Assembly: GCA_938085095.1 (NCBI GenBank)
Contig: CALKEI010000103.1
Span: 1 to 32,131 of the forward strand
Direction of reading: 5' to 3'
Origin: an uncultured Luminiphilus sp.
Lineage (GTDB): Bacteria > Pseudomonadota > Gammaproteobacteria > Pseudomonadales > Halieaceae
Length of the DNA stretch: 32,131 bases
Position 1 is the stretch's first letter. The number at the start of each line of letters is the position of its first letter. Positions 5,099-31,458 of the stretch are shown one piece after another. Under the pieces are notes generated by a model. The model had not been told where the DNA came from. It made no database searches and saw only the letters and a list, made by a program, of their open reading frames with translations. A program made the translations under genes and the position numbers.

Positions 5099-5854
5099 AT
5101 GCAGTTTAACCGAAGCCTCGGACCCCTGACGGTAAAAGGTGATGTGAGAGCCGTACTCGCCGGAGTGGTGTTGCTCGGCTTGCTCAGTAATCTCGGGTTT
5201 TGGCAGCTGGGCCGCGCGGGAGAAAAAGCCGTTCTGGAAGACCGGTGGCAGGCCCGTGCGGCAGAGCCCGCTGTGACCCCTCGCGCGTTAATAGACCGCG
5301 CCATAGACCCGGCGGACCGGCAGGTACGTTGGGAGGGTGAGTTCCGCGCGGGAGACTATCTACTTTTAGATAATCGATTGCATCGGGGGCAGCCGGGTTT
5401 CCACCTGATTGCGCTGGCTAGCGCAGGAGATGCAGTGGTGCCAGTCAATCTGGGCTGGTTGGCAGGTGACCCCTCTCGCCGGACCATACCTGAACCCGCA
5501 TTGCCCGAGGGCCTAGTGACCATCGAAGGGCGGGTGTATGTGCCAAGTGGTAAGCCGTTAATGATGCAAAAACCTGAGCCTCCCGAGGGGCTTCCGGCCG
5601 CCGTGCAGACCCTGTATTGGGATGGCTGGCAGGGTTCCCTGTCGAGGCTAACAGGGGCCGAAGTGTTTCCTTACGAAGTCAGAATCCAGCCTAATTCGCC
5701 TCTGGCGCTGGTCGCGGAGTGGACGGTCGTCAATCAGTCTCCTTCTATGCATTTGGGTTATGCGGTGCAGTGGTTCGCTATGGCGGCGGTGTTACTGCTG
5801 ATCGGTGTGCTCCGCCTCACTAATGTGCGCAGTTTGCTGAGCGGGAGAGCATGA
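5099..5854 (+). CDS. SURF1 family cytochrome oxidase assembly protein
   Basis: SURF1/Shy1 proteins help heme A insertion into subunit I of aa3-type oxidases. The 251-residue product shows the family plan: an N-terminal helix (about 17-37) ending in FWQLGRAGEK, a large periplasmic domain with NLGWLAGDP, and a C-terminal helix (HLGYAVQWFAMAAVLLL). I chose the ATG at 5099 (MQFNRSLGP). The frame is open to a TTG at 5075, but that would add eight residues unlike the family, and the GAGAG around 5084-5088 sits between the two. The stop overlaps the next gene in ATGA, so the two are translationally coupled. Confidence 0.9.
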   Translation: MQFNRSLGPLTVKGDVRAVLAGVVLLGLLSNLGFWQLGRAGEKAVLEDRWQARAAEPAVTPRALIDRAIDPADRQVRWEGEFRAGDYLLLDNRLHRGQPGFHLIALASAGDAVVPVNLGWLAGDPSRRTIPEPALPEGLVTIEGRVYVPSGKPLMMQKPEPPEGLPAAVQTLYWDGWQGSLSRLTGAEVFPYEVRIQPNSPLALVAEWTVVNQSPSMHLGYAVQWFAMAAVLLLIGVLRLTNVRSLLSGRA

Positions 5855-6525
5855 CCATGGCAACGCTGACGCCGCGCGCACAGCAGCGACGCGCACGCAC
5901 GGTGCTGCTTCTGATCGCGGGTATTCCTGTCGCTATGATGCTCGCGGCGACTGCGCTGTGGTGGGCAGTCGATAGCGGCCACGTCGATGTGTTGGACAGT
6001 GTGGGTACCGCGAATCACGGTACGCTGATCACACCCCCGCGGTCGTTAAGCGGGACCCTTTTTCAACACGAGGGGGTGGCCGAGACGCTGTGGCAGGATC
6101 TGCCAGTCAAGTGGCGATTCATGGTGGTTCAGCGCGGTAACGACTGCGGGGACATCTGCCAACAGCAGCTTTATCAAACCCGCCAGATTCACCTCGCTCT
6201 TGGCAAAGAATTCAATCGGGTCGGGCGCATTGTGCTCAGCGACACGTCTCCAGCCGCGGTTACGCTTGCTCCGGGGATCGACGATGCGGCGGATTCCGTC
6301 AGCCAGCGCCTGGATGATTGGCTGGCTCGTGAACATGTAGGCATTTTGCCACTGACCCTGCCTGCAATCGAGTTGGCGGGTTTGGTGCCCGAAATTCTGA
6401 CAGCGCCCGGGCAATGGTATGTCGTCGATCCGGCGGGTTGGATCATGATGCGGGTATCGGACGACCTTCATTATAAGGACGTCATTAGCGATATGCGGTT
6501 TTTGCTGAAAAACTCGGGTGGTTGA
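5851..6525 (+). CDS. Membrane-anchored Sco-like protein of the oxidase locus
   Basis: The 224-residue product has a basic N-terminus, one membrane helix (about 18-40) and a periplasmic part. The segment around 88-128 (WRFMVVQRGNDCGDIC, then QLYQTRQIHLALGK) resembles the first strand, CxxxC and helix of Sco/thioredoxin-fold proteins, with Cys99 and Cys103 spaced as in Sco. I see no clear equivalent of the Sco histidine. The gene sits in the slot of the hypothetical membrane protein after SURF1 in the Pseudomonas cox locus. A role in copper or thiol handling during oxidase assembly is inferred. ATG 5851 overlaps the SURF1 stop; ATG 5857 is a possible alternative. Confidence 0.7.
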   Translation: MTMATLTPRAQQRRARTVLLLIAGIPVAMMLAATALWWAVDSGHVDVLDSVGTANHGTLITPPRSLSGTLFQHEGVAETLWQDLPVKWRFMVVQRGNDCGDICQQQLYQTRQIHLALGKEFNRVGRIVLSDTSPAAVTLAPGIDDAADSVSQRLDDWLAREHVGILPLTLPAIELAGLVPEILTAPGQWYVVDPAGWIMMRVSDDLHYKDVISDMRFLLKNSGG

Positions 6526-6651
6526 CGCTGCCGCTCCACAGGGTGTTGGCGCCTCGAACCGGCGACAAGCGAGATCAAGGAGGCTGAGCCTGCGATCGGG
6601 TGGGCTGGCAGCGGGAAAAGCCATGCAAAATGGAATAAAAAGGTAACCGCC
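6526..6651. other. 126-base gap in the place where ctaA-ctaB would be expected
   Basis: No gene of ordinary size fits here. The sequence goes from the stop of the Sco-like gene to the GTG of sco without a recognisable remnant of ctaA or ctaB. The only tiny frame is seven codons (6623-6646), which ends at the AAAAAGG used as the sco ribosome binding site. Confidence 0.6.
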
Positions 6652-7302
6652 GTGACAGAATCAAGACAACGAGGCGTACGCTGGACGATTTTTGGCGTGG
6701 TCGTATTTATGGCGCTGGTGGTAGCCAGCTTCATTCATCGCGTTGGCGAGCCGCGCATCATGAGTCAGGCAGAGACGCGCGCGAATGGTCTGTTTTTGTT
6801 TGATACCCCTCGGGATACGGGTGATTTCGCACTCATCGATCACCGCGGCGCATCGTTCACTCGGGGTAATCTTGTCGGTCAGTGGACGCTGATTTTTTTT
6901 GGCTTTACCCATTGCCCGGATATTTGTCCGACGACCCTAGCCGAACTGGCTCAACTTAAAGCCCAGCTGGCAGGCACGGAGGCTAGCGCGACCCGCGTTG
7001 TGATGCTGTCGGTGGATCCGGCTCGAGACACCCCGGAGCGCTTGGCACAATACGTCCCCTATTTTCATGCCGACTTTGTGGGTGTGACGGGCGAATTCAG
7101 CGAGATCCTCAGCGTGGCGCAGCGTCTGAACGCACCCTTTCGCAAGGTGAGCGAGCCCGACGCCAGCTACCAGATGGAGCACAGTGCCAACGTGGTGCTA
7201 ATGAACCCTCGTGGGGACTATCATGGTTTTTTTCGCGCGCCCCTCGATATTCCCAAAATGCGGGTAACCTTACGATCCACCCAGTATTTGTGGGAGCACT
7301 GA
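6652..7302 (+). CDS. SCO1/SenC family copper metallochaperone
   Basis: Sco proteins metallate or reduce the CuA site of oxidase subunit II. The 216-residue product has an N-terminal membrane anchor (about 11-29) and a thioredoxin-fold domain. The copper ligands are visible: C88 and C92 in THCPDICPTTL, and H177 in MEHSANVVLMNP. VDPARDTPE is the typical Sco block after strand 2. Start is GTG at 6652, with AAAAAGG (6636-6642) as the ribosome binding site; no ATG fits better. It lies four bases before polA, so polA may be partly co-transcribed with the oxidase assembly genes. Confidence 0.95.
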   Translation: MTESRQRGVRWTIFGVVVFMALVVASFIHRVGEPRIMSQAETRANGLFLFDTPRDTGDFALIDHRGASFTRGNLVGQWTLIFFGFTHCPDICPTTLAELAQLKAQLAGTEASATRVVMLSVDPARDTPERLAQYVPYFHADFVGVTGEFSEILSVAQRLNAPFRKVSEPDASYQMEHSANVVLMNPRGDYHGFFRAPLDIPKMRVTLRSTQYLWEH

Positions 7303-7306
7303 TCTC

Positions 7307-10054
7307 ATGGCGAACCGGCTCATCCTAGTAGACGGATCCTCCTATCTGTTTCGGGCTTATCATGCGCTGCCCGCGCTCACCAATTCAAAAGGGTTGAATA
7401 CCGGCGCTGCCAAAGGCGTCATTGGCATGATCCGCAAGCTGGTGGCCGACTACGCCCAAGATCAGGTTGTCGTCGTGTTCGACGCCAAGGGGCCCACCTT
7501 TCGTAACGAGATCTATCCACAATACAAGGCTAATCGGCCGCCCATGCCCGATGAGCTGCGTGAGCAGATCGAACCCATACACAATGCCATTCGCGCAATG
7601 GGCTTGCCGCTCATCTGTATTGGTGGTGTCGAAGCAGACGATGTCATCGGCACCCTTTCGGTAGAGGCGGCCAGGGGCGGCAGAGATGTTGTCATCTCCA
7701 CCGGCGACAAAGATATGGCGCAGCTGGTCAACGATCACGTCACGCTCATTAACACCATGAACAACACCGCCATGGATCACGATGGTGTGGTGGCGAAGTT
7801 TGGTGTACCCCCAGCACTCATTATCGACTTGCTGGCGCTTATGGGCGACAAGGTCGACAACATACCCGGTGTTGCTGGTGTGGGAGAGAAAACAGCTACC
7901 GCGTTGCTGCAACACCTGGGTGGTATTGATTCGATATACGGGCAGCTCGATGCCGTTGCCGATTTGCCGATACGCGGCGCCAAGAGTCTCGGAACCAAAC
8001 TCGAAGGCGCGCGTGCGGACGCTGATCTCAGTTATGAGCTGGCGACGATCAAAATTGATTGTGATCTGGGGCTGGCAGAAGGGGATCTCGACTCCAGCCC
8101 GCCTGACACCAACGCGCTGATTGCGCTGTTTCAAGATCTTGAATTCAAGACCTGGTTAGACGCCTTGTTACAGAGCGATGGCGAAGCGGATGGTGATGTC
8201 GCGTCCGACGGGGACGAAACCCCGGAGCCGATGAGCGCCAGCGACGCTATTGAGGTGGCGACTATTTTTGACCAGAGCGATTTTGATGAGTGGCTGGCGA
8301 AGCTTGAGTCTGCCAGCTTATTTGCCTTCGATACTGAAACAACAAGCCTCGACTATATGGTGGCGGAGGTGGTTGGAGTTTCTTTCGCAGTGGAATCCGG
8401 TGCAGCAGCGTATGTGCCTCTGGCACACGATTATCCGGGCGCGCCAGACCAGCTCGACCGTGACGCTGTGCTAGAGGCCCTGCGGCCCCTGCTTGAGGAT
8501 GAGCAGATTGCCAAGGTCGGACAGCACCTTAAATACGACGCCAACGTCTTGGCCAACCATGGCATTACCCTGAGAGGCATTCGGGAAGACACCATGCTGG
8601 AGTCATACGTGCTGGACGCCGCTGGGAGTCGCCACGATCTCGATACGCTGGCGCTCAAGTATCTTGGACAGCGCACAATCCATTTCGAGGATATCGCCGG
8701 TAAGGGCGTCAAACAGCTGACATTTAATCAGGTGCCTATCGAGCAGGCCGCGCCTTACGCTGCCGAGGACGCCGAAGTGACGCTGCGCTTACATCAAAAA
8801 CTCGCAAAAAAACTGAGCGAGGAGCCCGCGCTATCCGCGTTATATCGGGAGCTGGAGATTCCACTGGTGCCCGTGCTCTCCCGGATCGAGCGCAATGGTG
8901 CGTTGGTGTGTCGCAGCACCCTCGCATCGCACAGTCAGGAGCTGGGAAAGCGCATCCTGTCTCTTGAGGCCAAAGCCCACGAATTGGCGGGTGGCCCGTT
9001 TAATCTTGGTTCACCCAAACAGCTTGGCGAGATCCTGTTCAACCAACTCGAGCTGCCTGTGCTGCGTAAGACCCCCAAGGGGGCGCCTTCTACCGCCGAG
9101 GAAGTGCTCTCTGAGCTGGCACTCGATTACCCTTTGCCTGCGGTCCTCATGGAGTACCGGAGTCTCAGCAAATTGAAGTCTACTTATACCGATAAGCTGC
9201 CTGAGATGATTGATCCACGCTCCGGGCGGGTGCACACCTCCTATCATCAGGCCGTAACAGCGACCGGCCGGTTGTCGTCATCGGACCCGAATCTGCAAAA
9301 TATTCCGATTCGGACCGAAGAGGGGAGGCGTATTCGCCAGGCCTTTATTGCTGCCCCGGGCTGCAAGATTGTCGCCGCCGATTATTCGCAGATCGAACTG
9401 CGTATCATGGCGCACCTTTCGCAGGACGACGGTCTACTCAACGCCTTTGCCGCTGGTTTGGACGTGCATAGTGCGACCGCTGCCGAAGTATTCGGCGTCG
9501 GGATAGATGGGGTATCCGTGGATCAGCGGCGTAAAGCCAAAGCCATCAATTTTGGTTTGATCTACGGGATGTCGGCGTTTGGTTTGGCTAAACAGCTGGG
9601 TCTCGGAAGACATGAGGCGCAAGAATATATTGATCTCTATTTTGCGCGTTACCCCGGCGTGGCGGAGTACATGGCGCGGACCCGCGAACGAGCTCACGAA
9701 GCCGGTTATGTTGAAACGCTAAAAGGGCGACGTCTCTACTTGCCCGAAATCAACGCCCGCAATCGCCAGCGTCAGCAAGCCGCTGAACGAACCGCGATTA
9801 ATGCACCGATGCAAGGCACTGCGGCCGACATCATTAAGATGGCCATGCTCTCAGTCGACGACTGGCTGACCCACTCACGGATTGATGCACGGTTGATTAT
9901 GCAAGTTCATGACGAGCTGGTTTTTGAGGTTGAGGCCGGTGCGGTGGAAGAGCTCTCTGAGACGGTGGTTCAATTGATGTCAGGTGTGGGTGTGCTCGAT
10001 GTGCCCTTGCTCGTTGAGGCGGGCACCGGCGATAACTGGGATGAAGCGCATTAG
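7307..10054 (+). CDS. polA: DNA polymerase I
   Basis: Pol I fills gaps and removes RNA primers during replication and repair. The 915-residue protein has all three domains. The 5'-3' exonuclease (1 to about 290) keeps its acidic metal ligands D9, D59, E109, D111, D112, D134 and D136, plus GDKVDNIPGVAGVGEKTA. The 3'-5' proofreading domain retains DTET (D342, E344), so proofreading is probably active. The polymerase domain carries DYSQIELR (D692) and VHDELVF (D869), the two catalytic aspartates. Length is close to E. coli Pol I (928). It converges on engB with only eight bases between stops and no visible terminator. Confidence 0.98.
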   Translation: MANRLILVDGSSYLFRAYHALPALTNSKGLNTGAAKGVIGMIRKLVADYAQDQVVVVFDAKGPTFRNEIYPQYKANRPPMPDELREQIEPIHNAIRAMGLPLICIGGVEADDVIGTLSVEAARGGRDVVISTGDKDMAQLVNDHVTLINTMNNTAMDHDGVVAKFGVPPALIIDLLALMGDKVDNIPGVAGVGEKTATALLQHLGGIDSIYGQLDAVADLPIRGAKSLGTKLEGARADADLSYELATIKIDCDLGLAEGDLDSSPPDTNALIALFQDLEFKTWLDALLQSDGEADGDVASDGDETPEPMSASDAIEVATIFDQSDFDEWLAKLESASLFAFDTETTSLDYMVAEVVGVSFAVESGAAAYVPLAHDYPGAPDQLDRDAVLEALRPLLEDEQIAKVGQHLKYDANVLANHGITLRGIREDTMLESYVLDAAGSRHDLDTLALKYLGQRTIHFEDIAGKGVKQLTFNQVPIEQAAPYAAEDAEVTLRLHQKLAKKLSEEPALSALYRELEIPLVPVLSRIERNGALVCRSTLASHSQELGKRILSLEAKAHELAGGPFNLGSPKQLGEILFNQLELPVLRKTPKGAPSTAEEVLSELALDYPLPAVLMEYRSLSKLKSTYTDKLPEMIDPRSGRVHTSYHQAVTATGRLSSSDPNLQNIPIRTEEGRRIRQAFIAAPGCKIVAADYSQIELRIMAHLSQDDGLLNAFAAGLDVHSATAAEVFGVGIDGVSVDQRRKAKAINFGLIYGMSAFGLAKQLGLGRHEAQEYIDLYFARYPGVAEYMARTRERAHEAGYVETLKGRRLYLPEINARNRQRQQAAERTAINAPMQGTAADIIKMAMLSVDDWLTHSRIDARLIMQVHDELVFEVEAGAVEELSETVVQLMSGVGVLDVPLLVEAGTGDNWDEAH

Positions 10055-23270: not shown

Positions 23271-24077
23271 ATGGAAAGCCTCCCCAGCGGTATCCAGTAT
23301 CGACACTGGCCCGTTGAAGACGCCAAAGCCTGCGTACTGCTCGCCCATGGTCTGGCTGAGCATACGGGCCGTTATGAAAGGCTAGCAGCGCGTTTCAACG
23401 CATGCGGTGTGGCCGTGGTGGGCCCCGACCATATTGGTCACGGTGCTTCTCCGGGCGTCAGGGTCTACCTGAAGCATTTCGGCGACTATCTTGCGCCCCT
23501 TCAGATCCTGCGAAGCTACATCGGTAATTGGTACGAAGGTAAACCGGTATTCCTCCTTGGGCACAGCATGGGAGGGCTCATCAGTGCGCACTTGCTACTT
23601 GAATCGCAGGCTGCATTTCGGGGTGCGATGTTGTCTGGCCCGGCCTTTCATGCAGTGGATCCGGCGCCGGCGCCCATGATCTGGATCGGCAGAGTGCTTC
23701 GCCATTTACTGCCCAAGCTGGGCATGCTCGGACTCGATGCTAATGGCGTGAGCCGCGACCCTGCGGTGGTCGCTGATTATATTGCTGATCCGCTGGTTTA
23801 TAACGGCAAGATCACAACGGGGTTGGGCATGGCGTTGCTAGACGCGATGGAGGTCGCGATTGCCCGTGCCGGTGACATTACCCTGCCCGTATATATCGCC
23901 CACGGCGATGCCGATGTGATGGCCGGGCCTGAGGGATCACAGGCATTTTTTGATGCGCTGGGTTCGGAGGATAAAACGCTCGATTTCTGGCCAGGGCTTT
24001 ATCACGAGATTTTTAATGAGCCTGAGTCCGAAGAGGTTATGACCCGCTATGTGAGCTGGCTGCAGGCGCATTTGTGA
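23271..24077 (+). CDS. Alpha/beta hydrolase, monoacylglycerol lipase/lysophospholipase-like
   Basis: The 268-residue product is a serine hydrolase of the Hydrolase_4 (monoglyceride lipase/PldB-like) type: LLAHGLAEHTGRYERLA (oxyanion HG), PDHIGHGASPG, nucleophile S99 in GHSMGG, the acid in HGDADVMAGP (D213 or D215), and H245 in GLYHEIFNE. No signal peptide is seen, so it is cytoplasmic. The substrate is probably a lysophospholipid, monoacylglycerol or another ester (inference). The ATG at 23271 follows GAGGAGCG; an open frame extends upstream but runs into ilvE. Its stop overlaps the rmlD start (GTGA), which couples it to the rhamnose genes. Confidence 0.9.
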   Translation: MESLPSGIQYRHWPVEDAKACVLLAHGLAEHTGRYERLAARFNACGVAVVGPDHIGHGASPGVRVYLKHFGDYLAPLQILRSYIGNWYEGKPVFLLGHSMGGLISAHLLLESQAAFRGAMLSGPAFHAVDPAPAPMIWIGRVLRHLLPKLGMLGLDANGVSRDPAVVADYIADPLVYNGKITTGLGMALLDAMEVAIARAGDITLPVYIAHGDADVMAGPEGSQAFFDALGSEDKTLDFWPGLYHEIFNEPESEEVMTRYVSWLQAHL

Positions 24078-24961
24078 GCGTCCTGCAGGCGCTAGTTCTG
24101 GGGGCGGGTGGACAGCTTGGTCGCGCCTGCATGGACTCCGTGCCCTCGGAGGTACGCGCGCATGGTGTCACCCGAGCGGCTTGCGATATTACCGATGACA
24201 TGGCGCTCAGACGCTGTATTGACGAGGTCAATCCCCGCTTGATCATTAATGCAGCGGCTTATACCGCTGTGGATGCCGCCGAGGAACACCCCGATGCCGC
24301 AGAGGCGGCCAATGCCAGCGCACCGGCCCTGTTAAGTGCACTGTGTGTCCAGCGAGGTGCCCGGCTGGTGCATCTGTCCACTGATTTCGTGTTTGATGGC
24401 AGGGCACCCAAACCCTACTCCCCCGAGGCGGCTCCAGCGCCGCTCGGCGTATACGGCGCGAGTAAATGGCGGGGTGAACAGGCAGTAATGGCGAGCGGTG
24501 TCAGCCATGCCGTAGTGCGCACTAGCTGGGTTTATGCCCCAGGTGGCCGCAATTTTGTCACGACCATGCTGCGCCTGATGCGTGAGCAGGGTGCAGTGCG
24601 CGTCGTTAATGATCAAATTGGTTCGCCAACGTCGGCGCGGGGCCTTGCTGAGGTGTGTTGGAAGCTGGCGATAGACCATGAGGCGAGCGGGCTCTTCCAT
24701 TGGTCCGACGCGGGTTCGATCAGCTGGTATGACTTCGCTTGTGGCATCCGCGATGAGGCGCTGGCGCTCGGATTGCTTGCATCGCCGGTGGCGGTTGAGT
24801 CCATTGCGACCGACGCTTTTCCTACCAAAGCCCGGCGACCCGCCTACAGTGTGCTCGACGTGACGCACACCTGCGCGACGCTGGGTATTGTCCAGCGCCC
24901 GTGGCGTGAGGCGCTTGGCGACATGTTACGGTCGGTGCAGACGCAAGAGGAGAAGGGGTAA
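24074..24961 (+). CDS. rmlD: dTDP-4-dehydrorhamnose reductase
   Basis: RmlD makes dTDP-L-rhamnose by NAD(P)H reduction, the last step of the pathway. The 295-residue product is an extended short-chain dehydrogenase: GAGGQLG (10-16) for the dinucleotide, STDFVFDG (102-109), and the catalytic pair Y127 and K131 in YGASKWRGE. The start is GTG at 24074, overlapping the stop of the hydrolase by four bases; the next ATG would cut away the nucleotide-binding glycines. The stop overlaps the rmlB start (TAATG). The symbol rfbD is a synonym. Confidence 0.95.
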   Translation: MSVLQALVLGAGGQLGRACMDSVPSEVRAHGVTRAACDITDDMALRRCIDEVNPRLIINAAAYTAVDAAEEHPDAAEAANASAPALLSALCVQRGARLVHLSTDFVFDGRAPKPYSPEAAPAPLGVYGASKWRGEQAVMASGVSHAVVRTSWVYAPGGRNFVTTMLRLMREQGAVRVVNDQIGSPTSARGLAEVCWKLAIDHEASGLFHWSDAGSISWYDFACGIRDEALALGLLASPVAVESIATDAFPTKARRPAYSVLDVTHTCATLGIVQRPWREALGDMLRSVQTQEEKG

Positions 24962-26040
24962 TGGCGCAGTCGCTGATGGTGACCGGTGGGGCGGGCTTTA
25001 TCGGTGTGAACTTTGTTTACCACTGGGCCGACGCCCACCCGAATGATCAGCTGGTGGTGCTGGACGCGCTGACCTATGCGGGCAATCGCGACAGCCTTGC
25101 GCCACTGGAGCAGGCCGGGCGCATTCGCTTTGTCGAGGGTGATATCTGCGATGCCGATTTAGTGGCGAGTGTCATGCGCGAGCACAGCACGGATACCATC
25201 GTGCACTTCGCGGCGGAAAGCCATGTCGATCGTTCAATTACCGGTCCCGATGCTTTTATTCGCACCAATCTAGAGGGCACTCACACCTTGCTGGCGGCGG
25301 CGCGAGGAGCATGGCTCAATGGCTCGGGGTGTGATCACCGGTTTCATCATGTCTCCACTGACGAGGTCTACGGTTCGCTGTCCGCAGGCGACCCTGCGTT
25401 TACCGAGACCACCCGGTACGAACCCAACTCGCCTTATTCGGCGAGCAAAGCGGGAAGTGATCATTTAGTGCGTGCCTATCAGCACACCTTCGGGCTGCAG
25501 GTGACGACCAGCAATTGTTCCAACAATTATGGCCCGTACCACTTTCCCGAAAAGCTCATTCCGCTGTGCCTCACCCGCATTCTCGATGGCGGCCAGATCC
25601 CGGTCTATGGCGATGGCAGTAACATTCGCGACTGGCTTTATGTGGCTGACCATGCCCGGGGTATCGCTAGAATTTTAGAGTCCGGCGAGGCTGGCGAGAT
25701 CTACAATATTGGTGGCCACAACGAGTGGGCAAATCTGGATATTGTGAGATTGCTATGTCAGGTAATGGATGAGCGCTTTGCTGCCGATGAGAAACTGTCT
25801 GTGCGCTTCCCCAATGCGCCGCAGGGCCGCGGTGCGAAAGGTGAATCGTTAATTGAGTTCGTCACGGACCGAGCAGGGCACGATTGGCGTTACGCTATTG
25901 ATGCGTCAAAGATCGAGCGTGAGTTGGGCTTCGTTCCCGATGAAACCTTTGAAACTGGGCTCGCCAAGACCGTCGATTGGTATCTCAATAACGAAGCTTG
26001 GTGGCGCCCGTTGCTGCACCAGGCAGGCACCGCGCGCTGA
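24961..26040 (+). CDS. rmlB: dTDP-glucose 4,6-dehydratase
   Basis: RmlB converts dTDP-glucose to dTDP-4-keto-6-deoxyglucose, the second step of dTDP-L-rhamnose synthesis. The 359-residue enzyme has GGAGFIG (9-15) for NAD+, the catalytic triplet T133-D134-E135 in VSTDEVYG, and Y159/K163 in SPYSASKAGSD. SNNYGPYHFPEKLIPL and GDGSNIRDWLYV are typical substrate loops. The start ATG shares one base with the rmlD stop. The gene ends 99 bases before the convergent rmlC. Synonym rfbB. Confidence 0.98.
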   Translation: MAQSLMVTGGAGFIGVNFVYHWADAHPNDQLVVLDALTYAGNRDSLAPLEQAGRIRFVEGDICDADLVASVMREHSTDTIVHFAAESHVDRSITGPDAFIRTNLEGTHTLLAAARGAWLNGSGCDHRFHHVSTDEVYGSLSAGDPAFTETTRYEPNSPYSASKAGSDHLVRAYQHTFGLQVTTSNCSNNYGPYHFPEKLIPLCLTRILDGGQIPVYGDGSNIRDWLYVADHARGIARILESGEAGEIYNIGGHNEWANLDIVRLLCQVMDERFAADEKLSVRFPNAPQGRGAKGESLIEFVTDRAGHDWRYAIDASKIERELGFVPDETFETGLAKTVDWYLNNEAWWRPLLHQAGTAR

Positions 26041-26096
26041 AAAAAAGCTTTTCGGTACCAGGCACTGAGCGTCACTAATGCTGGATTAACGCGCGA

Positions 26097-26120
26097 TGCC
26101 GCTGTCGCAATGCAGTGGCA
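26097..26120. terminator. Candidate bidirectional hairpin between rmlB and rmlC
   Basis: TGCCGCTG (26097-26104) and CAGTGGCA (26113-26120) pair with one G-T wobble around an 8-base loop. It lies in the 99-base gap between the two convergent rhamnose pairs. Neither side has a T run, so it is only a weak terminator candidate. Confidence 0.3.
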
Positions 26121-26139
26121 GAGATCTTTGAGTCTGCAG

Positions 26140-26697
26140 TCAGATCAGCCCGCGATAGAGCGGCAGGTCCTGCCAGCGAGTGCCGACCCGATCCTTGCCG
26201 GAGAGTAGTGGCTCAGCTCCGTCAGCAATTGGCCATTTCACTCCGACGGTGGCGTCATCCCAGGCCAGCGAAAGCTCACTTTCTGGATGATAGTAGTTGG
26301 TGCACTTATAGAGAAAGTCTGCCGACTCACTGAGGACGTAGAAGCCATGGGCGCAGCCCGGCGGCACCCAAAGCTGCTCCTGACCTTCAGCCGTTAGTGT
26401 CACGCCGTACCACTGCCCGCAGCTTGGTGACTCGGCTCGGCAGTCCACCACCACGTCATACACGGCGCCCGATGTAACTCGAACCAGTTTTCCTTGGGGC
26501 ATCTCGGTTTGCAGATGCAGTCCGCGCAGAGCGCCCTGCGCCGACCGGCTGTGATTATCTTGAACAAAAGTGTGCGTGATCCCCGCTTGGGCGTAGCGTT
26601 CGGCGTGCCACGTTTCGAGAAAGAAACCTCGGGCATCACCGTGCACTGTTGGCGTGATGAGCATCACGCCCTCCAACGGTGTGGACTCAGTCTTCAT
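26140..26697 (-). CDS. rmlC: dTDP-4-dehydrorhamnose 3,5-epimerase
   Basis: RmlC epimerises C3 and C5 of dTDP-4-keto-6-deoxyglucose, the third step. The 185-residue cupin has [10 protein letters not shown] (21-30), the catalytic base H61 in LRGLHLQ, Y130 in [10 protein letters not shown], and [12 protein letters not shown] chose the ATG at 26697 because [16 protein letters not shown] matches family N-termini and GGCGGACC lies upstream; a GTG at 26718 would add seven residues. The start overlaps the 3' end of rmlA by 11 bases, so the two are coupled. Synonym rfbC. Confidence 0.96.
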
Positions 26698-27595
26698 CGA
26701 ATACCGGTCCGCCGTCACTCAGCATGGTTTCCAGATAAGCGCCGTAGCCGCTTTTGATCAGCGGGGCGGCCAGCGCAAGCACCTGCTCGGCGTTGATATA
26801 ACCCAGACGGTAGGCGATTTCCTCGAGGCAGGCGACCTTTAGCCCCTGGCGGTCTTCGATCACGCGAATAAAGTTGCCCGCGTCGAGCAGCGACTGGTGC
26901 GTGCCGGTATCCAGCCATGCTGTGCCTTGACCCATTACCTCAACCCGCAGCGTGCCCTGCTCGAGGTAGTGGCGGTTTACATCTGTGATTTCCAGCTCAC
27001 CTCGTGGTGAGGGCTTGATGCCTTTGGCCACTGAGATGACGTCGTTATCGTAAAAATACAGGCCTGTCACCGCGTAATGGGATCGCGGTTCGGCGGGCTT
27101 TTCTTCAATGCCAATGGCCCGACCTGCCGCATCAAATTCGACCACGCCATAGCGCTCGGGATCGTGAACGTAGTAGGCAAAGACGGAAGCGCCATCAGCT
27201 CGTTGCGCTGCGCGACGCAGTTTCGCGGTAAAGCCAGCCCCGTGGAAAATATTGTCGCCCAGCACCAGGCAGACGGGATCTTGTCCAATAAAGTCCTCAC
27301 CCAAAAGAAAAGCCTGTGCAAGACCATCAGGACTTGCCTGTAAGGTGTACTGAATGCGGATACCCCACTGGCTTCCATCACCCAGCAAGTCTGCGTAGGC
27401 GATCTGGTCGCGGGGTGTGGTGATGATCAGAATATCTCGAATACCCGATTGCATGAGGGTAGCGAGTGGGTAATAGATCATGGGCTTGTCGTAGACCGGC
27501 ATCAGCTGCTTGCTGACGGTCGTTGTCAGCGGATGCAGCCGGGTACCCGACCCGCCGGCGAGAATAATACCCTTGTATGCGGTGTGCTCAGTCAT
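26687..27595 (-). CDS. rmlA: Glucose-1-phosphate thymidylyltransferase
   Basis: RmlA makes dTDP-glucose from glucose-1-phosphate and dTTP, the first and feedback-controlled step of the pathway. The 302-residue product shows [16 protein letters not shown] (9-24), K29 in [26 protein letters not shown] and the metal-site region, and ends with a full-length C-terminus. Start is ATG at 27595. It is divergent from the glycosyltransferase gene across 120 bases and leads the minus-strand pair rmlA-rmlC. Synonym rfbA. Confidence 0.98.
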
Positions 27596-27703: not shown

Positions 27704-27722
27704 ATGGCATAATAAGTGCCAT
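27704..27722. promoter_or_regulatory. Inverted repeat covering the glycosyltransferase start codon
   Basis: ATGGCA (27704-27709) and TGCCAT (27717-27722) are perfect arms around TAATAAG. The GTG start (27716-27718) lies at the arm-loop junction, directly after an in-frame TAA. No Shine-Dalgarno sequence precedes it. The structure could be an operator or an RNA hairpin limiting translation. Confidence 0.35.
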
Positions 27723-29035
27723 TAGTTGCCGCCGGCCCGGAGCCTCTTATCAACGCACCCCTTCACACGCCGCAAGCTGTCGAAGCTGATTGCCATGGCC
27801 CCAAAGGGGATCCGCTGCGCATCGCCTTGCTGGGTTACCGCTCGGCACCGTTTTCAGGTGGTCAGGGGGTGTACCTTCGCTACCTGAGTCAGGCGCTTGT
27901 GGCGCTGGGTCACGATGTGACGGTTATCTCGGGGCCGCCCTATCCGAATCTGGTGGACGGCGTCGCACTGGTAAAACTGCCGAGTCTCGATCTCTATGCG
28001 CGGGATCTCTGGAGTGTGGGTCGGGCTGAATTAAGCGATCCTCTCGGGCGTAAAGAATGGCTGAGTAAGTTGACGGGGGGCTTTGCAGAGCCCTGGACCT
28101 TTGGTGAGCGTGCCCGCGACTGGCTGCTGGCCCATGCCGATCAGTTTGACGTGGTGCACGATAATCAAACCCTTGCCGATGGCATTCTCGATCTTCAGCG
28201 GGCCGGCATCCCTGTCGTGACGACTATTCATCATCCAATTACGCGGGATCTCAGAGTCGCCCTCGCAGGTGAGCCGCGCTGGTGGTGGCGTCTGATGATT
28301 CGGCGCTGGTACGCCTTCCTCAAGATGCAAGTGAGGGTGGCCGGGCAACTCCGCCACATCGTGACGGTGTCGAAGTGCTCGGCCGCCGACATTGGGACTG
28401 ATTTTGGTGTGCTCCCGAATGCACTGCATGTCGTTCCTAATGGTGTGGATACCGATCTGTTCAAACCCCTCCCAGACGTCATTCGACACCCCAAAACAAT
28501 TATTGCGACTGCGTCCGCGGACGCGCCCTTAAAAGGCTTGCCAGTATTGTTGAAGGCCTTCAAGGTCCTGTGTGAAGCCGATCCCGCGCACCGGCTGGTG
28601 CTGATTGCCCGACCTAAGCCCGGCGGCGACACCGAGGCCCTGATTTCCCGGCTCGGTTTGGCCGAGCAGATTCGGTTTGTGGGTGACGCCAGTCACGAGG
28701 ACATCAACCGTCTTTATGCGGAGAGCGCTGTGGCCGTTGTGCCTTCGCTCTATGAAGGATTTGGTCTGCCGGCCGTCGAAGCGATGGCAGCGGGTGTCCC
28801 TCTGGTGTCGAGCGATGGAGGGGCCTTGGCTGAGGTCGTGGCGGATGGCGGGTTACTGGTGCCTGCGGGCGACAGCGAGGCGCTTGCCCAAGCGCTGGCG
28901 CGCGTGTTGTCCGATCCCATCCTTGCACAGGCCTTATCAGATCGCGGCAGACAGCGCGTGGCGAGTGAATTTTGCTGGTCCGTGTGTGCACAGCAGATGG
29001 TCCAACAATACCGGTCGTGCATCGACGCATGCTGA
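27716..29035 (+). CDS. Family 4 (GT-B) glycosyltransferase
   Basis: This is a retaining GT-B glycosyltransferase of the GT4 kind, probably using a nucleotide sugar (perhaps dTDP-rhamnose or another NDP/UDP sugar) on a lipid or glycan acceptor. The 439-residue product has LRIALLGYRSAPFSGGQGVYLRYLSQAL-type N-terminal domain (34-61), PNGVDTDLF (241-249), and the C-terminal EX7E motif E347-GFGLPAVE355. No membrane helix is evident, though a basic Trp-rich stretch at 188-200 could touch the membrane. GTG 27716 is the first in-frame start after a stop; no ATG lies before the conserved core. Its end overlaps the methyltransferase start by 7 bases. Confidence 0.9.
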   Translation: MPLVAAGPEPLINAPLHTPQAVEADCHGPKGDPLRIALLGYRSAPFSGGQGVYLRYLSQALVALGHDVTVISGPPYPNLVDGVALVKLPSLDLYARDLWSVGRAELSDPLGRKEWLSKLTGGFAEPWTFGERARDWLLAHADQFDVVHDNQTLADGILDLQRAGIPVVTTIHHPITRDLRVALAGEPRWWWRLMIRRWYAFLKMQVRVAGQLRHIVTVSKCSAADIGTDFGVLPNALHVVPNGVDTDLFKPLPDVIRHPKTIIATASADAPLKGLPVLLKAFKVLCEADPAHRLVLIARPKPGGDTEALISRLGLAEQIRFVGDASHEDINRLYAESAVAVVPSLYEGFGLPAVEAMAAGVPLVSSDGGALAEVVADGGLLVPAGDSEALAQALARVLSDPILAQALSDRGRQRVASEFCWSVCAQQMVQQYRSCIDAC

Positions 29036-29769
29036 CGGTCGATCTCGACAAGCTCGCACTGCAGCCTGGTCAACTGTGTGTCGACGTGGGTTGCGGAGAG
29101 GGACGTCACTCCCTCGCCACCTATTTACGCGAGGGTGTGCATGCACTCGGGATCGACTTGTCCGAGCAGGATGTCGGCACAGCGACACGGCGTATTGATG
29201 ATATGCAGTCCCATTTGCCCGCGGGCCACATTAGTTTTGCAGCGGCGGATGCGACGGCTTTGCCGCTGGGCGACAGTACGGTCGACGTGGTCATTGCCAG
29301 CGAGATTCTTGAGCACATTCCCAATTACTTGAGGGTATTGGAGGAGGCAAAGCGAGTACTGAAGCCTGGGGGTCGCCTGTGCATCAGTGTGCCCAGACAG
29401 TGGCCAGAATGGATCTGCTGGCAGCTGAGTGAGGGTTATCGGAGTACCCCAGGGGGGCACATCCGCATTTTTGACGCGACGCACCTGCGCAGAGAAGTGG
29501 CGCGCCAGGGTTTTGTCTTCGGCGGACGGGGGAGTGCGCATGCACTGCACGTGCCGTACTGGTGGCTAAAGTGCCTGTTCTGGCGTCGCGATCCCGAGCC
29601 TTGGCTGGTGCGCACTTACCACAAACTGCTGGTATGGGATCTGATGCGGCGCCCCTGGATTACCCGCGCGCTCGACGCGTTTCTCAACCCCATTATGGGA
29701 AAAAGCGTGGTGCTGTATTTCACCAAGCAGGACATCGACAAGGCTACGCCGTCAGAGATGAGCCCATGA
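29029..29769 (+). CDS. Class I SAM-dependent methyltransferase (Methyltransf_11-like)
   Basis: The 246-residue protein has the SAM motif I VDVGCGEGRHS (18-28), acidic GIDLSEQD (41-48), motif around DATALPLGDSTVDVVIASEILEHI (post-motif), and VLKPGGRLCISVP. The C-terminal 100 residues are rich in Trp/Arg/Tyr and have no assignable role. The acceptor may be a sugar or lipid made by the preceding glycosyltransferase (inference from coupling). I use the ATG at 29029; the frame is open further upstream but inside the glycosyltransferase. The start overlaps that gene by 7 bases and its stop overlaps the next gene in ATGA. Confidence 0.88.
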   Translation: MLTVDLDKLALQPGQLCVDVGCGEGRHSLATYLREGVHALGIDLSEQDVGTATRRIDDMQSHLPAGHISFAAADATALPLGDSTVDVVIASEILEHIPNYLRVLEEAKRVLKPGGRLCISVPRQWPEWICWQLSEGYRSTPGGHIRIFDATHLRREVARQGFVFGGRGSAHALHVPYWWLKCLFWRRDPEPWLVRTYHKLLVWDLMRRPWITRALDAFLNPIMGKSVVLYFTKQDIDKATPSEMSP

Positions 29770-30806
29770 ATGCCCCTTTCCTGAGCCCGGGCACATACCC
29801 CGCACAATGGCTTCAGCCCACGGTAGCGTTTCTTCTCGCGACTCAAAGGGCATCGGGGGAAATCCCTTGGTTTGAAGACGGGCATACTGATCCATGGGAT
29901 CACACTGAAGCTGCGATGGGCCTTAGTATTGCCGGCGAGCTCAAAGCCGCCGAGCGAGCTTATGCCTGGCTCGGCGGCACACAATTGCCCGATGGCAGTT
30001 GGTGGGCCTGTTATCGAGACGGGCAACCCGATCACACCGTCGAGCGACGCGAGACCAACTATGTTGCCTATGTCGCAACCGGTATCTGGCACCATTTTCT
30101 GATTACTGGAGAGACTGATTTTTTGCGCGGTGCGTTTCCGATGGTCCAGAAAGCCATTGATTTCGTGCTGCACTATCAGAGCGCCGAAGGCGAGATTGAC
30201 TGGGCGGTTGATCCCGACGGCAATCCCCTGGGCGATGCGCTGGTGACGGGTTGCTGTTCAATCTACAAGTCGCTTGAATGCGCCATTTTAATGGCAGAGC
30301 AACTTGATCAACCGACCGCGGCGTGGCGATCCGCGCGCAAGCAGCTTGGGCACGCGCTGGCGCATCGGCCCGAGCGCTTTGATCGAACATGGGAGAGCAA
30401 ATCCCGCTATGCCATGGACTGGTTTTATCCCATTTTGGCCGGACTCGTAGTGGGACAGTCAGCCAGAGACCGGCTGAATCAGCGTTGGATGGAGTTTGTC
30501 GAGCCGGGCATCGGGTGTCGCTGTGAGAACCACCAGCCCTGGGCCACCGTCGCGGAGTCCTGCGAGCTGACGCTGGCACTGCTTGCCGCGGGAGAGCGCG
30601 AGCAGGCAGCCGAACTCTTCAGCTGGCTGACGCAGTGGCGTGACGTGGATGGTGCATGGTGGACGGGCTACCAGTTTGCGGAGCAGGTGCTCTGGCCCTT
30701 GGAAAAGCCAACCTGGACCGCAGGTGCCGTGCTGCTCGCGGCGGATGCGCTCACTTCTTACAGTGGCGCCAGTGGCCTTTTTCTCTCGCCTTTTCTGGAG
30801 GATTAA
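29766..30806 (+). CDS. Alpha/alpha-toroid protein, prenyltransferase/cyclase-like, function unknown
   Basis: This 346-residue protein is nearly all helical, with repeats of about 45-60 residues that contain W, G and D clusters: GEIPWFEDGHTDPWDHTEAAMGL (31-53), LPDGSWWACY (74-83), GDALVTGCCSIYKSLECA (156-173), GIGCRCENHQPW (248-259) and KPTWTAGAVLLAADAL (314-329). The DGSW element resembles QW repeats of terpene cyclases and prenyltransferase beta subunits. (Alpha/alpha)6 glycosidase-like enzymes are an alternative. No DxDD cyclase motif is present. Cysteines 163, 164, 172, 251, 253 and 266 might bind metal. The function is not known to me. ATG 29766 overlaps the methyltransferase stop by four bases. 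Confidence 0.7.
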   Translation: MNAPFLSPGTYPAQWLQPTVAFLLATQRASGEIPWFEDGHTDPWDHTEAAMGLSIAGELKAAERAYAWLGGTQLPDGSWWACYRDGQPDHTVERRETNYVAYVATGIWHHFLITGETDFLRGAFPMVQKAIDFVLHYQSAEGEIDWAVDPDGNPLGDALVTGCCSIYKSLECAILMAEQLDQPTAAWRSARKQLGHALAHRPERFDRTWESKSRYAMDWFYPILAGLVVGQSARDRLNQRWMEFVEPGIGCRCENHQPWATVAESCELTLALLAAGEREQAAELFSWLTQWRDVDGAWWTGYQFAEQVLWPLEKPTWTAGAVLLAADALTSYSGASGLFLSPFLED

Positions 30807-30822
30807 GCAGTGCGCACCGGGG

Positions 30823-31458
30823 TTAGGGGACGAGTCGCCTGAGCCCCCGCAGGGTACCCGTGGTGCCCATTAGCTCAAACAGGCCCGATTGGTTTGCCAA
30901 TTGCCAGATTGTAAACGGCGCCTGCCCACCTTGGCTGGGGTCCGGAAATACGTCGTGAATGGCGAGTATGCCCCCGGGCGAGAGTCGGGGCGCCCAGGCG
31001 CGATAATCTGTGAGCGCCGCATCTAGGCTGTGCCCGCCGTCGATAAACACCATACCCAGACTGCCGCGCCAGTGCGGCGCTAAATCGGCGCTGGCGCTGA
31101 CAATTGGAATCACCGGGCTGTCCAGACCGGCGGCGGCAATATTGCGGCGAAATTCGGCGAAGCTATCGAACTGGCCTGACGTATCCATGAGGGCCTGATC
31201 GTGGTGGCTTTCCCCCGGCTGATGTTCCTCGGAGCCGCGGTGATGATCCACGGCGAAGACCACGGTGTCGTGAGCTTGTGCGGCTTGTGCAAGCCAAATG
31301 GTGGAGCGCCCGCAGTAGCTGCCGATCTCAAGAAGGGGACCGATTTGTGCGGCTTCAAGTGCCCAGTCATATAACTGCCCTCCCTCGTCGTCAGGGAGGA
31401 AGCCGCGCACGGAATCTCCTGGAGGTCGGGGTGGGGTCTGGGGCATGGACTGAGACAT
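30823..31458 (-). CDS. Class I SAM-dependent methyltransferase (Methyltransf_24-like)
   Basis: The 211-residue product has LLEIGSYCGRSTIWLA (42-57) as SAM motif I, FAVDHH (68-73), VFIDGGHSLDAALTDYRAW (137-155) and GGILAIHDVFPDP (162-174). The IDGGHS and HDVF blocks mark the Methyltransf_24/TylF-related group, many of which are metal-dependent sugar O-methyltransferases. It lies 16 bases from the stop of the toroid protein, on the opposite strand, and is divergent from waaA by 46 bases. A role with the neighbouring glycosyltransferase cassette is inferred. Start is ATG 31458. Confidence 0.88.
   Translation of the reverse strand: MSQSMPQTPPRPPGDSVRGFLPDDEGGQLYDWALEAAQIGPLLEIGSYCGRSTIWLAQAAQAHDTVVFAVDHHRGSEEHQPGESHHDQALMDTSGQFDSFAEFRRNIAAAGLDSPVIPIVSASADLAPHWRGSLGMVFIDGGHSLDAALTDYRAWAPRLSPGGILAIHDVFPDPSQGGQAPFTIWQLANQSGLFELMGTTGTLRGLRRLVP

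Follow-up and report, generated by a model that had tools for sequence, protein, structure and literature searches.

Why would a marine gammaproteobacterium keep a glycosyltransferase, two methyltransferases and a toroid protein that reaches no family cut-off side by side? The question is raised by a four-gene cassette on a stretch of 32,131 nucleotides, in the following referred to as the window. It is contig CALKEI010000103.1 (GenBank assembly GCA_938085095.1) of an uncultured Luminiphilus species from the family Halieaceae, whose genome of 2.0 Mb is 80% complete. An earlier sequence-only reading had singled out the cassette as a possible system for building and methylating a glycolipid or surface glycan, without a described pathway to match. 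Our analysis points to a known one: with a probability of about 0.85, the cassette represents a complete gene cluster for 3-O-methylmannose polysaccharide (MMP), orthologous to that of mycobacteria. This reading is based on the homology of all four proteins, the conservation of their active sites, the order and orientation of their genes and the presence of a GDP-mannose-forming enzyme in the family; from these we infer which reactions take place, which sugar is used and what is made. The pathway itself is known, and the interest lies in its hosts, namely marine bacteria and, in a shortened form, archaea.

MMP is an intracellular polysaccharide. In the published model of its synthesis, defined oligomannosides are released from mature MMP by MmpH and lengthened by ManT; the 3-O-methyl groups very likely come from pMeT3, and fragments whose 1-OH is free are methylated by MeT1 (PMC9883506). 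Among the papers listed by searches of the openly licensed literature, a scope outside of which the 2019 PNAS paper on MeT1 falls, none describes an MMP cluster outside actinobacteria in its title or abstract. Likewise, the main text of PMC9883506 (2023) makes no mention of proteobacteria, gammaproteobacteria, archaea, Natrinema, Luminiphilus or marine organisms.

Homology to the mycobacterial enzymes

For three of the four window proteins, the best match among all solved structures is an enzyme of the MMP pathway, each time by a large margin. The Methyltransf_24 protein matches 6G7D (phmmer E-value 1e-51, residues 14–208; next chain 7.3e-5), which we take to be MeT1, its PDB label being 'methyltransferase domain protein' and its name not appearing in PMC9883506. 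The glycosyltransferase, of the GT4 type, matches 7QSG (3.4e-104, residues 33–436; next best chain 7.2e-30), and the toroid protein matches 7QSJ (5.8e-95, residues 8–340). These two structures are ManT and MmpH of Mycobacterium hassiacum, respectively (PMC9883506); the PDB label on 7QSG is inositol phosphate glycosyltransferase.

The class I methyltransferase encoded between these two has no ortholog among the solved structures, where its best match reaches only 3.4e-13. Since these matches are so distant, we sought a mycobacterial-type cluster for comparison and found one at a locus from the actinobacterial phylum (L157), whose MmpH scores 707 bits against 7QSJ. It comprises manT (5734–6966, +), a methyltransferase gene (6963–7685, +), mmpH (7708–8682, +) and meT1 (9362–8778, −), in exactly the order and orientation of the window. 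The corresponding proteins are 46.3% (ManT), 46.7% (methyltransferase, end to end over residues 1–239), 45.6% (MmpH) and 47.2% (MeT1) identical, so that the meT1 position, too, holds the same protein. In M. hassiacum, the locus tags place pMeT3 between manT and mmpH (PMC9883506). The M. hassiacum cluster (MHAS_04402–04405) and the window thus share manT, pmeT3, mmpH and meT1 as well as the main active-site residues; they differ in the host, here a marine gammaproteobacterium without a match to type I fatty acid synthase (FAS-I), and in Asp293 of ManT, which is His in the window. Because three of the proteins are near full-length homologs of solved MMP enzymes and the fourth matches the remaining gene, the set does not belong to an undescribed pathway, as had been thought, but to that of MMP; the idea that a glycan is built and methylated is supported by the same match.

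This assignment gives a likely function to the toroid protein, which stays below all Pfam and NCBIfam cut-offs (Pfam GH95, 17.9 bits with a cut-off of 27; best NCBIfam match an oligosaccharide amylase, 46.7 bits with a cut-off of 820.7). Its AlphaFold2 model (mean predicted local distance difference test score 93.5) retrieves both chains of 7QSJ as the top Foldseek matches, with template modelling (TM) scores of 0.93 and 0.92 at 44% identity, followed as the next different protein by a glycosidase with a TM score of 0.74. The 50 matches listed of 790 (E-values up to 10) are glycosidases, phosphorylases, sugar epimerases, isomerases and one uncharacterised protein; no prenyltransferase or cyclase is among them. 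The toroid protein, for which a prenyl or a sugar substrate had been considered, accordingly falls with the (α/α)6 glycosidases, which upholds the sugar and lends no support to the prenyl substrate.

The sequence match to 7QSJ and the Foldseek list also rule out a squalene cyclase, a prenyltransferase and a GH95 enzyme. A placement of MmpH in CAZy family GH188 was dropped, as GH188 is a sulfoquinovosidase family, and we assign no CAZy number. GH15- and GH125-type (α/α)6 glycosidases share the fold and the position of the catalytic base with MmpH, but MmpH differs from them as an endo-enzyme and has low identity to them (PMC9883506).

Active sites and proposed reactions

In the numbering of 7QSJ, which is that of PMC9883506, the window MmpH is identical at Asp47, Asp50, Asn101, Glu262, Glu265 and Trp315 and has Tyr in place of Phe102. 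For the homologs, we used 124 of 156 aligned rows (31 with fewer than 300 residues, partial or at locus or contig ends, and one with an X were dropped): Glu262 and Glu265 are kept in all 124 and Asp47 in 123, and Trp49, Met215 and Tyr219 are invariant. In the M. hassiacum enzyme, the Glu262Ala variant is inactive and Asp50Ala drastically weaker (PMC9883506). The window ManT retains Gly15, His142, Lys240, Glu313, Gly314, Phe315, Leu317 and Glu321 of 7QSG in the phmmer alignment, with Ala in place of Leu291. Of the 143 ManT rows, which do not include the window protein, 92 were used (48 were short or contained a stop and three contained an X), and all 92 keep His142, Lys240, Glu313, Gly314, Phe315 and Leu317, with Glu321 kept in 91. 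As for the methyltransferases, conservation was assessed in 89 of 92 MeT1 and 132 of 144 pMeT3 rows; most residues in the DHHxGSEExQ and FxDGxH stretches of MeT1 show at least 97% conservation among the 89 homologs.

If the enzymology of M. hassiacum can be transferred, the window toroid protein is predicted to be an (α/α)6-barrel endo-α-(1→4)-mannosidase, which would cut existing MMP into oligomannosides that serve as primers. The GT4 protein, a predicted α-(1→4)-mannosyltransferase, would lengthen these oligomannosides with mannose from GDP-mannose, the donor we infer. The pMeT3-type protein, a predicted 3-O-methyltransferase of mannose units, would methylate the 3-OH of the added residues, and the MeT1-type protein, a predicted 1-O-methyltransferase, would block the reducing end by methylating the 1-OH of fragments in which it is free. 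The outcome would be a short, slightly hydrophobic intracellular polymer.

Distribution and phylogeny

The nearest named relatives of the window MmpH come from Luminiphilus, including the cultured strain Luminiphilus syltensis NOR5-1B (locus L024), and from other Halieaceae. Within this family, 129 of 140 genomes have an MmpH match, as do 75 of the 78 of good quality, and 27 of 28 genera are represented. An even sample of 369 gammaproteobacterial genomes yielded 10 matches at an E-value of 0.001, nine of which were counted; genome G234, whose weak match covers only about 120 residues (1.3e-4, 29% identity), was excluded from both the positive and the negative set. Further afield, MmpH matches occur in 166 of 345 genomes from the class to which the actinobacterial genome G380 belongs, in whose phylum ManT has matches in 39 of 246 genomes at an E-value of 1e-70, and in 6 of 79 haloarchaeal genomes. 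All four cluster genes are also carried by Nonomuraea gerenzanensis (NZ_LT559118.1, locus L124).

We surveyed the layout of 79 loci anchored on mmpH, 63 of which have enough flank (2200 bases before and 800 after mmpH). Their group labels are taken from record titles, and a few 'Halieaceae-type' loci have wider or different titles, such as L031 ('Alteromonadaceae') and L005 and L042 ('Gammaproteobacteria'). In 41 of the 63, manT and pmeT3 lie upstream and a convergent meT1 lies downstream of mmpH; 34 of these loci are Halieaceae-type, four come from other gammaproteobacteria, two from Desulfohalobiaceae and one from an actinobacterium. Because the full layout recurs this often, the arrangement is far beyond chance. 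The four genes co-occur widely rather than forming a rare grouping, which bears out their description as one conserved unit. The remaining 22 loci comprise 11 from haloarchaea without meT1, six of the Desulfobacteria type with a lone mmpH, and five from gammaproteobacteria (three Halieaceae-type and one other scored as partial, and one contig without meT1).

The haloarchaeal clusters (Natrinema, Haloterrigena) resemble the window in that manT, pmeT3 and mmpH follow each other in the same order at 11 of 11 loci; unlike the window, they lack meT1 and carry Tyr at Asp293 of ManT and His at Asn101 of MmpH in all 11 rows. Searches of whole genomes found meT1 in 12 of 18 and in none of the five haloarchaeal genomes among them. 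The sixth genome without a match is a Halieaceae-type metagenome-assembled genome (G386, locus L042), in which the contig ends just past mmpH. At 6 of 11 haloarchaeal loci (for example L056, 9526–10554, −; also L054, L059, L060, L063 and L066), and likewise at L166, the cluster is followed after about 0.3–4 kb by another class I methyltransferase-like gene, which could take the place of MeT1 or have no connection with the pathway.

In Desulfobacteria, all six loci with sufficient flank have mmpH without the other cluster genes beside it. We set aside the idea of another system there, as the other genes are present elsewhere in five genomes (G375–G379; loci L069, L073, L079, L071 and L074): manT in four, G376 being the one in which it was not found, and meT1 in all five. 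What these genomes carry is the MMP pathway with its genes scattered.

In a tree of 89 MmpH rows, made by a quick method and containing several long branches (most of the Halieaceae-type rows had been deliberately thinned out, and L080, L090, L091 and L116 were omitted), Halieaceae and haloarchaea each form one clade (Shimodaira–Hasegawa-like approximate likelihood ratio test support of 100 each). The haloarchaea are placed among gammaproteobacterial and Desulfohalobiaceae rows by forks supported at 83 to 90, and the mycobacterial-type rows are nested in the actinobacterial ones, where L157 groups with 7QSJ (97). The simplest reading would be a transfer of the cluster into haloarchaea, but the deep branches are weak.

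At one locus each, all four cluster genes were also matched in three gammaproteobacterial genomes of only 0.9–1.3 Mb (G031, G176 and G283; loci L088, L085 and L086), with one TAA within the matched MmpH stretch of G176; their presence suggests that the polymer is of value even to streamlined cells. In the metagenome-assembled genome BS307-5m-G52, mmpH and meT1 occur on two contigs (L044, JADHQF010000112.1, and L067, JADHQF010000028.1), perhaps from two strains that were binned together.

Genomic context and alternative readings

The layout of the window cassette is summarized in Table 1. The four genes, both overlaps and the opposite-strand Methyltransf_24 gene were confirmed on the sequence, as was the placement between dTDP-rhamnose genes and waaA: by profile matches, rmlD and rmlB (+) and rmlC and rmlA (−) span positions 24077–27595 upstream, between ilvE and the cluster, and the start of waaA follows downstream.

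Table 1. Genes and gene overlaps of the putative MMP cluster in the window
Feature	Position	Strand	Remarks
manT-type GT4 gene	27716..29035	+	GTG start; Pfam PF13439/PF00534
pmeT3-type class I methyltransferase gene	29029..29769	+	ATG at 29029; PF08241, 76 bits
mmpH-type α/α-toroid gene	29766..30806	+	ATG at 29766; no Pfam family above cut-off
meT1-type Methyltransf_24 gene	30823..31458	−	converges on the other three; PF13578
manT/pmeT3 overlap	29029..29035	+	7 bases; read from sequence
pmeT3/mmpH overlap	29766..29769	+	4 bases, ATGA; read from sequence

Does this neighborhood belong to the system? We tested rmlA, rmlB, ilvE and waaA (with the 211-residue part present in the window as query) at 45 loci with about 6 kb on each side. 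Of the 25 Halieaceae-type loci among these, 18 have rmlA and rmlB beside the cluster, eight of them together with waaA, for which 15 of the 25 give a match. At the other seven, ilvE lies about 1 kb upstream of manT and waaA downstream, with no rmlA or rmlB match within 6 kb; the rml block therefore seems to have been inserted or lost in particular lineages. None of the four neighbors is found within 6 kb at any of the 20 other loci, which come from other gammaproteobacteria, haloarchaea and Desulfobacterota. Because the neighbors vary in this way, the rhamnose and lipopolysaccharide (LPS) genes are not part of the system, and the proposed tie to dTDP-rhamnose, already at odds with the seven loci and with the occurrence of the cluster in actinobacteria and archaea, does not hold.

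Several observations weigh against the MMP assignment or parts of it. In ManT, Asp293 is Asp in 26 of 37 actinobacterial rows, but it is His in 30 of 36 Halieaceae-type rows, as in the window, and Tyr in the haloarchaeal ones. Its contact to guanine, which does not define ManT, is a proposal from comparison with PimA, and the section on the ManT structure reports no variant of it (PMC9883506). Since this proposed contact is not conserved, we do not call the donor sugar proven, and the donor nucleotide or sugar could differ from GDP-mannose. In MmpH, Asn takes the place of Asp50 in 33 of 38 actinobacterial, 13 of 48 Halieaceae-type and 2 of 16 other gammaproteobacterial rows. Tyr replaces Trp315 in 26 of the 38 actinobacterial rows, His replaces Asn101 in all 11 haloarchaeal and some other rows, and Phe102 is widely variable; because Asp50 is Asn in so many Halieaceae-type and actinobacterial rows, the alignment hints at Asp47 as the catalytic acid. 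The function of pMeT3 is putative in mycobacteria as well (PMC9883506). GMP/PMI, which makes GDP-mannose, is full length in all eight near-complete genomes of the family and above cut-off in 11 of 20 genomes searched, but in the window's own, incomplete genome its gene is divided between two contig ends. It is below cut-off in 5 of 5 haloarchaea and absent from 2 of 2 actinobacterial genomes, which must make GDP-mannose by other enzymes; GMP/PMI is for this reason not a requirement of the cluster. To our knowledge, experiments have demonstrated the steps of the MMP pathway only in actinobacteria.

Against this background, three other readings deserve consideration. An MMP-like polymer of another hexose would involve the same four reactions, with a ManT-like enzyme using a different nucleotide sugar to give a different methylated α-(1→4)-glycan. 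The loss of Asp293 in most ManT rows outside actinobacteria and the rml genes adjoining 18 of the 25 Halieaceae-type loci would fit such a polymer, which we nonetheless regard as improbable: MmpH and MeT1 act on a mannose polymer and both retain their main conserved residues, GMP/PMI occurs in the family, and the remaining seven loci do without adjoining rml genes. Another known polymethylated polysaccharide, the 6-O-methylglucose lipopolysaccharide (MGLP), is said to bind acyl-CoA in vitro (PMC2674218); it is glucose-based, whereas the window genes match the mannose pathway.

A cassette for the LPS core or another surface glycan, in which the GT4 protein builds and the two methyltransferases cap a cell-surface sugar, is suggested by waaA and the rml genes next to the cluster in the window and by the frequent waaA matches at Halieaceae-type loci. 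It is very unlikely, as the best matches of three of the proteins belong to the pathway of an intracellular polysaccharide, the cluster also occurs in organisms that lack an LPS core, namely actinobacteria and archaea, and none of the neighbors tested lies within 6 kb at any of the 20 long loci of other types; the surface role originally envisaged falls with it. Least credible of all is a prenyl-modifying system with a terpene cyclase or prenyltransferase-like toroid protein. It has the α/α-toroid architecture in its favor and against it the Foldseek matches listed above and the retained catalytic Asp and Glu of the mannosidase. MMP synthesis is the reading we retain.

A possible role in fatty-acid catabolism

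The cellular function of MMP has long been debated. The leading idea is that it binds acyl-CoA, as observed in vitro, and controls FAS-I, with doubt about the role in vivo expressed in 2009 for the sister polymer (PMC2674218); M. smegmatis without MMP grows more slowly at 15 °C, and a part in cold adaptation has been suggested (PMC9883506). We searched 28 genome entries (27 genomes, G382 and G842 being identical) for the FAS-I marker PF08354, which was detected in the control, C. glutamicum. Only three entries, all mycobacterial-type, have a match above cut-off; there is a sub-threshold match in a Desulfobacteria genome (G375), and none above cut-off in the 11 Halieaceae-type entries, among them the window's own 80% complete genome, or in the five haloarchaea. 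As the marker is confined to these three mycobacterial-type genomes, the MMP cluster does not need FAS-I. Haloarchaeal membranes, for their part, are built of ether-linked isoprenoids.

A different association emerged from the gammaproteobacterial sample, in which we compared the nine MmpH-positive genomes, from nine different families, with 359 negatives. Scored acyl-CoA dehydrogenase matches, counted as the best 13 per genome at most, have a median of 5.7 per Mb in positives and 0.5 in negatives (p = 3.6e-7), and the difference remains against 152 family means (p = 6.7e-7), which leave out 80 genomes without any match. Loose first-look counts, used separately, give medians of 14 and 2 candidates (p = 1.8e-5), while the corresponding medians for aldehyde dehydrogenase, taken as a control family, are 7 and 5 (p = 0.12). 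Relative to 188 matched negatives, alike in size and aldehyde dehydrogenase count, acyl-CoA dehydrogenases reach 6.9 versus 0.97 per Mb (p = 9.5e-7).

This pattern is what names a new hypothesis on the role of MMP: we propose that it binds long-chain acyl-CoA in cells that burn fatty acids heavily, rather than controlling FAS-I. The case has its counterweights. Per Mb, aldehyde dehydrogenases are also higher in positives than in the matched negatives (3.5 versus 2.0, p = 1.4e-4), which is why part of the signal may reflect general heterotrophy. The link is correlational and uncorrected for kinship, and two genomes with 61 (G157) and 62 (G268) acyl-CoA dehydrogenase candidates are without MmpH. 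As 33 of the 359 negatives reach the lowest density seen in positives, a high density is neither sufficient for nor exclusive to MmpH carriers.

Tentatively, and at somewhat less than even odds, we see MMP as a widespread acyl-CoA-carrying polysaccharide of fatty-acid catabolism instead of a regulator of FAS-I: near-core in a marine family, kept in genomes of 0.9–1.3 Mb, and shortened in haloarchaea, where the product made without MeT1 would have a free reducing end. With the gene set near-universal in a family without a FAS-I match and three of its genes present in archaea, MMP is no longer tied to FAS-I or to the mycobacterial envelope, and non-pathogenic hosts are now available in which its role outside mycobacteria can be tested.

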